This document shows, piece by piece, positions 25,477 through 31,410 of a DNA stretch of 64,000 nucleotides; within the stretch, counting starts at the first letter, position 1, and each line of letters starts with the position of its first letter. The notes under the pieces were generated by a model that searched no databases, was not told the origin of the DNA, and saw only the letters and a program-made list of their open reading frames with translations. Source of the DNA: Aquisalimonas sp. 2447 (GTDB lineage Bacteria; Pseudomonadota; Gammaproteobacteria; Nitrococcales; Aquisalimonadaceae); contig NZ_CP050695.1 in NCBI RefSeq assembly GCF_012044895.1, forward strand, positions 3,006,501 through 3,070,500, read 5' to 3'. The translations under genes and the position numbers were made by a program.

Positions 25477-26583
25477 ATGAAACACTTGACCCGACTCGCC
25501 ATCGGCGGCCTGACCGCCGGCCTCGCTCTTGGCACCATGAGCACCACCGTTCACGCTGATAAGGCGGAATGGACCATGACCACCACCTGGTCCGATTCCA
25601 TCGACCTAATCCAGATCGATCGCCGCTGGGTGGATACGGTGCACCGCATCGCCGGAGACGATATCGAGATCGACTTCCGTGCGGGCGGCAGCCTGATGCC
25701 TGCCGGCGAGGTGTTCGATGCCACGGAGACGGGCAGCATTGACGCCTCGGGGGACTGGCCGGGCTACTGGGCGGGCCGGGACACCGCCTTCTCGCCCCTG
25801 GCCACCCACACCATGCTGTTCAATGCCGTTGACTACCTCAACTGGATCTTCGAGTGGGGTGGTTGGGATATCTATCAGGAGATCTACGGCGAGTACGACA
25901 TGGTGTATCTGCCTTACGGCATCACCAACAACGAGTCCGGCTTCATGGGCCGCACCAAGATCGAGTCCATCGACGATCTGGACGGCATGCGCCTGCGCCT
26001 GGCCGGCCGTGACCAGGGCCGGGTTCTGGAGCGCCTCGGTGGCTCCCAGGTCACCCTGGCCGGTGACGAGATCTACCAGGCGGTGGAACGCGGCGTGGTG
26101 GACGGCGCCGAGTTCTCCACCCCGGGCGTGGACTACAAGATCGGCTTCCACGAGATCGTGGACTACTGGGCCACACCGGGCTGGCACCAGTCCGCCAGTG
26201 TCTTCGGCGTGATGATCAACAAGGATTCCTGGGACGCCCTGCCCGAACAGACCCAGGAGGCACTGAAGGTCGCCGCGGAGGCCACCATGGCCTGGTCCAT
26301 CGCCTGGTCCGAGCGCGGTTCCATGGAGGGCACCGAGGGCTTCCAGGAGGCCGGTGTCGAGATCAGCCAGATGCCGGAAGAGGAACTGGAGCGGGTGCAG
26401 CAGGTGACCAACGAGGTCATCGTCGAGGGCGCCTGTGAAAACCCGCTGCATGCCAAGGTGTACCATTCCCAGATCAGCTATCTGGAGGAGTACGCCACCT
26501 GGCGGGATCTGTCCGTGCCGTTCAACATGAGCCGCACCATGGACAGCCTCCCCGACCTCGACGCCATCGAGGAATGCCTGTAA
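25477..26583 (+). CDS. dctP: TRAP transporter substrate-binding protein DctP
   Basis: 368 residues with a Sec signal peptide (MKHLTRLAIGGLTAGLALGT, cleavage likely after VHA). The mature part has the DctP fold with MRLRLAGRDQGRVLERLGGS, where the central Arg usually binds the substrate carboxylate, and VERGVVDGAEFSTPGVDYKIGF. It delivers a carboxylate-bearing substrate to DctQM in the periplasm. The neighbouring genes suggest 3-hydroxybutyrate or a related acid. The ATG at 25477 has GGAGG upstream; a longer open frame exists but carries no signal peptide. Confidence 0.9.
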   Translation: MKHLTRLAIGGLTAGLALGTMSTTVHADKAEWTMTTTWSDSIDLIQIDRRWVDTVHRIAGDDIEIDFRAGGSLMPAGEVFDATETGSIDASGDWPGYWAGRDTAFSPLATHTMLFNAVDYLNWIFEWGGWDIYQEIYGEYDMVYLPYGITNNESGFMGRTKIESIDDLDGMRLRLAGRDQGRVLERLGGSQVTLAGDEIYQAVERGVVDGAEFSTPGVDYKIGFHEIVDYWATPGWHQSASVFGVMINKDSWDALPEQTQEALKVAAEATMAWSIAWSERGSMEGTEGFQEAGVEISQMPEEELERVQQVTNEVIVEGACENPLHAKVYHSQISYLEEYATWRDLSVPFNMSRTMDSLPDLDAIEECL

Positions 26584-26649
26584 CGCCTGCCAGGGCGTAG
26601 GGTGACTCTCGTGGCACGGGCCGCGGTGACCATCCTCATCAGGTAGTCC

Positions 26650-26676
26650 GGCGTGGCCGCGGCAAGCGGCCACGCC
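26650..26676 (+). other. Intercistronic hairpin between dctP and dctQ
   Basis: A perfect 11-bp GC-rich stem (26650-26660 with 26666-26676) and a five-base loop, with no T-run. It sits in the 123-base dctP-dctQ gap. Such hairpins often protect the binding-protein part of the message so that DctP outnumbers the permease. Confidence 0.6.
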
Positions 26677-29368: not shown

Positions 29369-29430
29369 TTGCCAGGCCGCGGTGTCGACCCTCGCGCCGA
29401 CCCCAACGAAAAACGACGGAGGAAGAGACG

Positions 29431-31410
29431 ATGTCCGGCGACATCCTTTGGCAGCCCGGCGAACGGGAGCTGCGCAAGAGCAACATGGCGCGGTACATGG
29501 ACTGGCTGGCCGAGAACGGCTACGGGCGCTTCGGCAACTGGCCGGCGCTGTACCAGTGGTCGATCCGTGACATGGAACAGTTCTGGGAGTCGGTCTGGAC
29601 GTTCAGCGGGCTCCACGCCGACACTCCCTGGGAGAGCATCCACGACAACCAGCCCATGCCGGCCACCCGCTGGCTGCCCGGGGCGCGGCTCAATTATGCC
29701 GGCAACATGCTGCGGCATGCCCGGGGCGAACGCGCCGACCAGGAAGCGGTCATCGCGGTGGCCGAGGGTCGCGAGACCTCCCGCACCACCTGGCGGGAAC
29801 TGGAGCGCCAGGTCGGCGCATTCGAGGGCTGGCTACGGGCACAGGGCGTCGAAGCCGGCGACCGGGTTGCCGGGCTGGTTTGCAACGGCCTGGAGGCGCT
29901 GGTGGGCATGCTCGCCTGCTCCAGCCTGGGCGCGGTCTGGAGTTCCGCTTCGCCGGATTTCGGCGTCCAGGCCACAGAGGACCGGTTCGGCCAGATCGAG
30001 CCCAAGGTTCTGGTGGCGGTGAACGGTTACGGCTTCAACGGCAAGCACTTCCAGCGCGCCGAGCAGATCCGGCAATTGGCCGAGCGGATCCCCAGCGTAC
30101 AGGCCGTTGCCGTGATCCCGCAGTTGGACGATGCCGCCATGCCCGAAGGCGACCGCTTCGTCCCCTGGGACGAAGCCCTGGCGGCCCATGACGGGGCGAA
30201 TCCTTCCTTCACGCCGTTGCCGGCAGATCATCCGCTCTACATCCTGTACTCCTCCGGCACCACCGGCAAGCCGAAGTGCATCGTCCACGGAGCCGGCGGC
30301 ATCCTGCTCAACCACGCCAAGGAACTGATCCTTCACGGTGACGTGGCGATGGGCGACCGTTTCTTCTACTTCACCACCTGCGGCTGGATGATGTGGAACT
30401 GGCAGGCGTCGGCACTGCTGGCCGGGGCCACGCTGGTGGTCTACGACGGTTCCCCCGGCTATCCGGACGTGGGCATGCCCTGGCGGCTGGCGGAAGCAGA
30501 GCGTCTCACCCACTTCGGCACCAGCGCCCGCTTTATCGCCGCCTGCCGTAAAGCGGAGATCGAACCCGGGCACGACCAGGACCTGAGCGCCCTGCGGGTG
30601 GTGTTCTCCACCGGCTCACCGCTGCTGCCGGAGGACTACGACTGGTTCTATACCGCCGTCTCCCGGGATATCCTGCTTGGCTCCATCGCCGGCGGCACGG
30701 ACATCTGCGCCTGTTTCGTCGGCAGTAATCCGCTGCTGCCCGTGCGTCGCGGCGAAATTCAGGGGCCCATGCTGGGCGCCGACGTCGCAGCCTTCGATGA
30801 AGATGGCCAGGCGACGGATGGCCGGGGTGAACTGGTCTGTCGCCAACCGCTGCCGTCCATGCCGGTGGCGTTCTGGAACGACCCCGACGGCAGCCGTTAT
30901 CGCGAAGCCTATTTCGACACCTTCCCCGGGATCTGGGCCCACGGTGATTTCATCGGTTTCACCGATGCCGGGGGCGCCATCATCTACGGGCGCTCCGACG
31001 CGGTCCTCAATCCCGGCGGTGTCCGCATCGGCACGGCCGAGATCTACCGACAGGTAGAAACCGAGACCCGCATCGCCGACAGCCTGGTGGTGGGCCGCCC
31101 GGTGGAGGGCGATGTGGAAGTCGTGCTGCTGGTCGTGCCGGCAGAGTGCGTGACTGTGGACGGCGAATTGCGCAAACAACTGCGTAACCGCATCCGCGAG
31201 GGGGCAAGCCCCCGCCACGTTCCCCGCCACATCGTCGCCGTGGACGACATCCCCTATACCCGCAGTGGCAAGAAAGTGGAACTCGCCGTCACCCGGATGC
31301 TGCGCGGCGACCGCAAGGAAGAGAACCGCGCGGCACTGTCCAACCCGGAATCCCTGGACCACATTCGCGCCACATTGAGCGAAACCGGTTTGCTGCCGGG
31401 GACCGACTGA
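29431..31410 (+). CDS. aacS: Acetoacetyl-CoA synthetase (acetoacetate-CoA ligase)
   Basis: 659 residues. Adenylate-forming enzyme with LYILYSSGTTGKPKCIVHG, TTCGWMMWNWQASALLAGA, and a C-terminal lysine region RSGKKVELAVTRML. The N-terminal part (NWPALYQWSIRDMEQFWESV) is the acetyl/acetoacetyl-CoA synthetase cap. It activates acetoacetate to acetoacetyl-CoA, which completes the route that bdhA begins. GGAGGAAGAG lies upstream of the ATG. Last gene of the TRAP operon. Confidence 0.93.
   Translation: MSGDILWQPGERELRKSNMARYMDWLAENGYGRFGNWPALYQWSIRDMEQFWESVWTFSGLHADTPWESIHDNQPMPATRWLPGARLNYAGNMLRHARGERADQEAVIAVAEGRETSRTTWRELERQVGAFEGWLRAQGVEAGDRVAGLVCNGLEALVGMLACSSLGAVWSSASPDFGVQATEDRFGQIEPKVLVAVNGYGFNGKHFQRAEQIRQLAERIPSVQAVAVIPQLDDAAMPEGDRFVPWDEALAAHDGANPSFTPLPADHPLYILYSSGTTGKPKCIVHGAGGILLNHAKELILHGDVAMGDRFFYFTTCGWMMWNWQASALLAGATLVVYDGSPGYPDVGMPWRLAEAERLTHFGTSARFIAACRKAEIEPGHDQDLSALRVVFSTGSPLLPEDYDWFYTAVSRDILLGSIAGGTDICACFVGSNPLLPVRRGEIQGPMLGADVAAFDEDGQATDGRGELVCRQPLPSMPVAFWNDPDGSRYREAYFDTFPGIWAHGDFIGFTDAGGAIIYGRSDAVLNPGGVRIGTAEIYRQVETETRIADSLVVGRPVEGDVEVVLLVVPAECVTVDGELRKQLRNRIREGASPRHVPRHIVAVDDIPYTRSGKKVELAVTRMLRGDRKEENRAALSNPESLDHIRATLSETGLLPGTD

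Follow-up and report, generated by a model that had tools for sequence, protein, structure and literature searches.

A TRAP transporter encoded with 3-hydroxybutyrate dehydrogenase and acetoacetate–CoA ligase downstream of an HbcR-like sigma-54 activator in Aquisalimonas sp. 2447

We analysed a 64,000-nucleotide stretch of DNA from the salt-loving bacterium Aquisalimonas sp. 2447 (contig NZ_CP050695.1, positions 3,006,501 to 3,070,500 of the forward strand; hereafter the window), which belongs to a 3.97-Mb genome assembled as one contig. Five co-oriented open reading frames on the + strand, at 25477-31410 of the window, encode a tripartite ATP-independent periplasmic (TRAP) transporter and two enzymes acting on 3-hydroxybutyrate and acetoacetate. 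All three transporter subunits fall into their Pfam families: the solute receptor DctP (25477-26583; 114 bits), which structure matching places in the TakP/lactate-receptor type, the small membrane subunit DctQ (26707-27201; 78.6 bits) and the large membrane subunit DctM (27205-28530; 263.6 bits). These genes are followed by bdhA (28586-29368), encoding 3-hydroxybutyrate dehydrogenase, and aacS (29431-31410), encoding acetoacetate–CoA (coenzyme A) ligase. The gene for an HbcR-like sigma-54 activator (23777-25201, + strand) ends 275 bp before the start of dctP. The coordinates and family assignments bear out the preliminary description of dctPQM, bdhA and aacS as an operon running in one direction, and the five genes are probably co-transcribed.

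BdhA scored above the cut-offs of three NCBIfam 3-hydroxybutyrate dehydrogenase models (364.9 against 340, 345 against 258 and 309.5 against 307.05) and contains the YxxxK motif of short-chain dehydrogenases/reductases (SDR; YVAAK at residue 155). It also matched structures 6zzo (E = 4.5e-103) and 4trr (E = 2.8e-102), which were deposited as (putative) 3-hydroxybutyrate dehydrogenases. AacS reached 812.2 bits against the cut-off of 520.9 in TIGR01217, the acetoacetate–CoA ligase equivalog model; two further AacS-like genes (49% and 46% identical) are present in the same genome. The scores of the two enzymes support the route that had been proposed for them, i.e. 3-hydroxybutyrate to acetoacetate to acetoacetyl-CoA.

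The activator consists of a PAS domain (Pfam PAS_4), an AAA+ sigma-54 activation domain (Sigma54_activat) and a Fis-type helix-turn-helix (HTH_8). It contains the sequence GAYTGA, in agreement with the GA(F/Y)TGA loop motif of sigma-54 activators. A -24/-12 type promoter, TGGCACGGAGCGTGCT, lies at 25361-25376 (+ strand) and matches 11 of 12 consensus positions. A single site of this kind is not significant on its own, as 10 matches with at most two mismatches were found in the window and 13.6 were expected. The site is convincing because an 11/12 match is present upstream of dctP in all four Aquisalimonas loci that could be read (the window, L051, L052, which equals L059, and L058; L numbers are our locus labels). 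Mononucleotide shuffles of these four upstream regions reached 11/12 in 0-2 of 300 cases. The best matches at four loci of other genera described below (L221, L222, L223 and L152) were just 9-10 of 12. A scan of positions 23500-31900 for sigma-70-like promoters returned no acceptable match. Sigma-54 control of the operon, which had been suggested from the promoter, is therefore supported by the recurrence of the site, and the presence of an HbcR-like activator is supported as well.

Three 18-bp palindromes between the activator gene and dctP are an element newly recognized in this analysis. Palindrome 1 (25194-25211), which overlaps the stop codon of the activator gene, and palindrome 2 (25214-25231) both read TGCCCTGAATTCCGGACA, and palindrome 3 (25257-25274) reads TGTCCGAAAATACGGACA. 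The last is the only exact TGTCCG-N6-CGGACA among the matches listed for the 3.97-Mb genome. We computed a score for the triple array at the eight loci whose activators are at least 66% identical and across the 64-kb window. The array, with spacings of 20 and 62-63 bp, was present in all eight, namely four Aquisalimonas loci (the window, L051, L052 and L058), three of a second genus, g232 (L221, L222 and L223), and one of another family (L152). Mismatches numbered 0-5 over the 30 half-site positions; the best dinucleotide shuffles had 11-12, and none of 200 per locus came near the natural arrays. The 24 palindrome copies yielded the consensus TGTCCTGAWWTCMGGACA. This conservation is strong evidence that the palindromes constitute the binding array of the activator. 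Of 32 other activator loci, three (L155, L236 and L240) also have exact palindromes no more than 4.5 kb from the activator.

The same gene set was recovered from other genomes. dctM, bdhA and aacS are kept together in three other Aquisalimonas genomes. Two of these (L051 and L052) have the activator on the same contig, in the order activator-dctPQM-bdhA-aacS; in the third (L056) the order is dctQ-dctM-bdhA-aacS, dctP is cut by the contig end and the activator is not on the contig. At L055 the contig ends inside dctP. The three g232 genomes have the complete order activator-dctPQM-bdhA-aacS, with 66-68% identity to the window for the activator, 73-79% for BdhA and 62-63% for AacS. The TRAP transporter of g232, in contrast, is not orthologous to that of the window (27-29% identity in DctP). 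When DctM sequences were arranged in a tree, that of Aquisalimonas clustered with TRAP proteins of Halomonas, Marinobacter and f215, a family that we take to be Rhodobacteraceae. L221 and L222 group with L152 and with L283, where the TRAP genes adjoin a D-lactate dehydrogenase gene, and L223 groups with L155. As these are three separate groups, at least three TRAP transporters have filled the one slot. The bdhA tree joins Aquisalimonas to g232 with support of only 91/86, and L152 has the activator, palindromes and a TRAP transporter without adjoining enzyme genes. From these data we conclude that transporters have been exchanged as modules within a unit whose switch and enzymes are otherwise conserved.

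To place this exchange within the activator family, we read all 36 activator loci found outside the genome of the window and counted neighbours within 8.5 kb. No control loci were counted, and the 36 are not independent, nine being of one Pseudomonas-like kind. The loci contained 3-hydroxybutyrate dehydrogenase in 18 cases, AacS in 12, a CoA-transferase in seven and at least one of these in 22. In having 3-hydroxybutyrate dehydrogenase and transporter genes as neighbours, the window activator conforms to the HbcR type. A transporter of some kind was present in 33 of 36 and absent from three. GntP-type permeases were present at 16 loci, HAAT-type ABC transporters at 10, TRAP transporters at eight (one of them, L237, resting on a 29% match) and TctA at two. 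Loci with activators of 50-53% identity included the HbcR arrangement of GntP-type permease, bdhA and aacS, and others in which the activator stands beside HAAT-type ABC transporters. In Mariluticola the genes after the activator specify 3-hydroxybutyrate dehydrogenase and an ABC transporter whose annotation is that of the branched-chain amino acid type.

The window activator is 67% identical to that of L221 and 52% identical to that of L230, an HbcR-type locus; judged by the PA2005 locus, L230-type loci are presumably Pseudomonas with the HbcR layout. The two systems also share -24/-12-like sites beside the activator and the presence of 3-hydroxybutyrate dehydrogenase and acetoacetate–CoA ligase nearby. 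They differ in that a GntP-type permease adjoins the activator in the HbcR-type locus and a TRAP transporter in the window, and in that the 3-hydroxybutyrate dehydrogenase of the former lies on another tree branch. The L230 permease is not recognized by the Pfam model and was called GntP-type through L237, a 48% relative above the cut-off. The Aquisalimonas genome itself encodes a GntP-type permease that shares 44% identity with its counterpart at an HbcR-type locus, so a second import route is possible. The permease gene directly follows a patatin-like gene (L252:5677-8252), away from bdhA. Because of this permease, the earlier suggestion that the TRAP transporter took the place of another carrier to suit a Na+-rich habitat is not supported. 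In addition, a sea-sediment bacterium has a HAAT-type ABC transporter, not a TRAP transporter, with the activator and 3-hydroxybutyrate dehydrogenase, and TRAP-linked activators occur in other families as well, whose habitats are not known.

An AlphaFold model of DctP (mean pLDDT 87) was compared with solved receptors. It aligned with 2hzl over 324 residues (Z score 39.8) and with 2zzv over 323 residues (Z score 39.3), at 24-25% identity, and thus falls in the TakP/lactate receptor group. The pyruvate- and cation-binding residues described for TakP (PMC1839085) correspond to Y97, R174, E212, F213, E153 and Q238 of DctP. These are invariant in all 14 receptors aligned, which come from operons of different kinds. 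Y97, R174 and E212, aligned with Tyr100, Arg177 and Glu214 of TakP, retain the carboxylate and cation ligands; therefore the pocket fits a small monocarboxylate. DctP shares this receptor group and these residues with TakPQM of Rhodobacter sphaeroides and with the lactate receptor TTHA0766. It differs from both in overall sequence (24-25% identity), and from TakP in the cation ligands, where Gln156/Glu240 are swapped to Glu153/Gln238. The comparison supports the view that DctP is closest to the small-monocarboxylate receptor type. The model places DctP in the group but cannot name its ligand.

These results suggest that the operon probably provides inducible uptake and oxidation of (R)-3-hydroxybutyrate, with 3-hydroxybutyrate as a likely substrate of the TRAP transporter. 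(R)-3-Hydroxybutyrate reportedly activates HbcR (PMC10482368). By analogy, the Aquisalimonas activator would sense 3-hydroxybutyrate, bind the three conserved palindromes upstream of dctP and start transcription by sigma-54 RNA polymerase from the -24/-12 promoter. DctP would capture 3-hydroxybutyrate together with a cation, and DctQM, if it behaves as other TRAP transporters, would carry it into the cell with Na+. BdhA would then oxidize it to acetoacetate, which AacS would convert to acetoacetyl-CoA at the expense of ATP and CoA. In the sea, 3-hydroxybutyrate is proposed to be an important carbon substrate (PMC10130141, PMC11374999). The hbtABC genes of Ruegeria pomeroyi (SPO2571-2573) specify a mutant-verified uptake system, according to its authors the sole confirmed example from bacteria (PMC10130141); compared by description, it resembles the present system as a three-gene uptake system for 3-hydroxybutyrate. 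Our literature searches, the wider of which covered titles and the beginnings of abstracts, gave no paper among the matches listed on an operon combining a TRAP transporter, 3-hydroxybutyrate dehydrogenase and acetoacetyl-CoA synthetase.

Several observations weigh against this interpretation. Lactate-linked receptors have identical pocket residues, which therefore do not distinguish 3-hydroxybutyrate from lactate. We also inspected the best 80 of 214 TRAP relatives, comprising two from Aquisalimonas and 78 others with 68-76% identity. bdhA, aacS or the activator was found in none of the 78 within the stretch fetched (at least 3 kb after dctM in 68 of them), and none had an exact palindrome within 400 bp upstream of dctP. 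Assignment of the substrate through the neighbours of orthologues consequently failed. Most of these orthologues, which occur in Halomonas, Vreelandella and Marinobacter, are stand-alone dctPQM genes. Some adjoin CoA-ligase-like genes or an iron-alcohol-dehydrogenase-like gene, and one, in Bisbaumannia, stands before 3-hydroxyisobutyrate dehydrogenase. One neighbourhood speaks in favour of 3-hydroxybutyrate: in Vreelandella jeotgali an SDR gene of the 3-hydroxybutyrate dehydrogenase type comes after the orthologous dctPQM, its product exceeding one cut-off (281.9 against 258) and falling below two (296 against 307.05 and 219.3 against 340). Transporters resembling those of the g232 (sister) operon were also examined. 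At L283 and L285, both from f215 genomes and two of the four loci for which genes were listed (the others being L284 and L297), the TRAP genes precede D-lactate dehydrogenase (PRK11183 scores of 935.8 and 911.6 bits, cut-off 391; the enzyme was tested for in these two). The L283 and L285 transporters are related to the sister-operon ones at 77% and 49%, the former being the identity of the L283 DctP to that of the 3-hydroxybutyrate operon at L221. A divergent FCD-type GntR regulator gene lies upstream of the L283 genes (L283:7422-13444). On the regulatory side, a search reaching 4.5 kb from the activator gave no exact TGTCC-N8-GGACA at L230-L235 or L241-L243, which are of the HbcR type, and their DNA site may therefore differ. 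Azospirillum activators with 51-52% identity (L209, L218 and L219) have genes for mannonate dehydratase, mannitol dehydrogenase and TRAP proteins as neighbours, and the family may serve other substrates as well. Finally, the PAS domain of HbcR has been assigned to autoinducer binding on the basis of conserved residues (PMC8694187).

The family f215 was considered as a key to hbtABC. Transporters of the window type are present in 14 of its 248 genomes (E of 1e-100 or better). All 14 loci were read (L164, L165 and L178-L189), and none had a bdhA of at least 45% identity or an aacS of at least 40%. Near the TRAP genes, four had a CoA-ligase-like gene, 26-28% identical to AacS. This approach was dropped. 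Receptors of the L221 type are present in 63 of the 248 genomes (E of 1e-70 or better), and a search of 20 such loci, including the four listed above, gave no bdhA at 45% or more; one at L296 reached 34%.

It is about evenly balanced whether the operon recruited a carrier with a broad range of C3-C5 hydroxy- and oxo-monocarboxylates (lactate, pyruvate, acetoacetate and 3-hydroxyisobutyrate), 3-hydroxybutyrate being one of several substrates or a minor one. The nearest solved receptors, which include those for 2-oxo acids and lactate, the mixed surroundings of the orthologues and the D-lactate dehydrogenase genes would all fit such a carrier. Against it, the TRAP genes of both Aquisalimonas and g232 are in an operon with exactly the two 3-hydroxybutyrate enzymes and an HbcR-like activator. 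The two explanations overlap and are not exclusive. Import of 3-hydroxybutyrate, as put forward in the preliminary description, is favoured by the small-monocarboxylate type of the receptor and by the recurrence of the plan in g232, and the argument from gene association alone is weakened by the 78 orthologues.

We consider it unlikely that the operon serves mainly to turn over the cell's own poly-3-hydroxybutyrate, with the transporter recapturing leaked monomer. The genome does encode two class I polyhydroxyalkanoate (PHA) synthases above cut-off, and the operon BdhA is its only close one (the next is 36% identical). However, the five genes of the operon include no PHA gene, and control by a sigma-54 activator with the transporter genes placed first would point to an external supply. 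That the activator answers another signal (a molecule of the quorum type or a different hydroxy acid) and governs the 3-hydroxybutyrate genes only indirectly would suit the uronate-type genes beside its Azospirillum relatives and the autoinducer assignment, but is quite improbable in that overexpressed HbcR with supplied (R)-3-hydroxybutyrate is reported to restore motility of Pseudomonas fluorescens (PMC10482368) and half of the 36 activator loci contain the dehydrogenase.

Gaps within the operon are 3, 55 and 62 bp, apart from the 123 bp between dctP and dctQ, which contain a strong predicted hairpin with a perfect 11-bp stem (26650-26676, + strand). This hairpin may hold receptor mRNA above the level of the membrane-subunit mRNA. 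Stems were also predicted in seven other dctP-dctQ gaps, including those of Halomonas and Marinobacter, folded without a shuffle control. A terminator-like stem, likewise perfect over 11 bp and with a weak T tail, follows aacS (31433-31460, + strand). Upstream, a REC-EAL protein gene (21734-23764) ends 12 bp before the activator gene; it is also present at L051 and L058, and at L059 an AMP nucleosidase gene occupies its place. Past the operon, open reading frames at 31678-36266 resemble PilB, PilC, PilD and CoaE, as named by eye from the reading-frame list.

What is new here is that the switch stays fixed and the transporter behind it can be exchanged. Tentatively, and at slightly less than even odds, we propose that the HbcR-type slot has been refilled with unrelated carriers (GntP, HAAT-type ABC and at least three non-orthologous TRAP transporters) behind a constant switch and, in Aquisalimonas and g232, a constant palindrome array. 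The Aquisalimonas TRAP transporter would then be a 3-hydroxy acid importer with a Gln/Glu-swapped cation site, and the stand-alone Halomonas orthologues would be unrecognized 3-hydroxybutyrate importers. An activator that marks the transporter in its regulon offers a direct way to find further 3-hydroxybutyrate importers, and the fixed palindrome array offers a ready promoter test. Transporter exchange behind a constant switch on one operon also warns against naming TRAP substrates from neighbouring genes alone.

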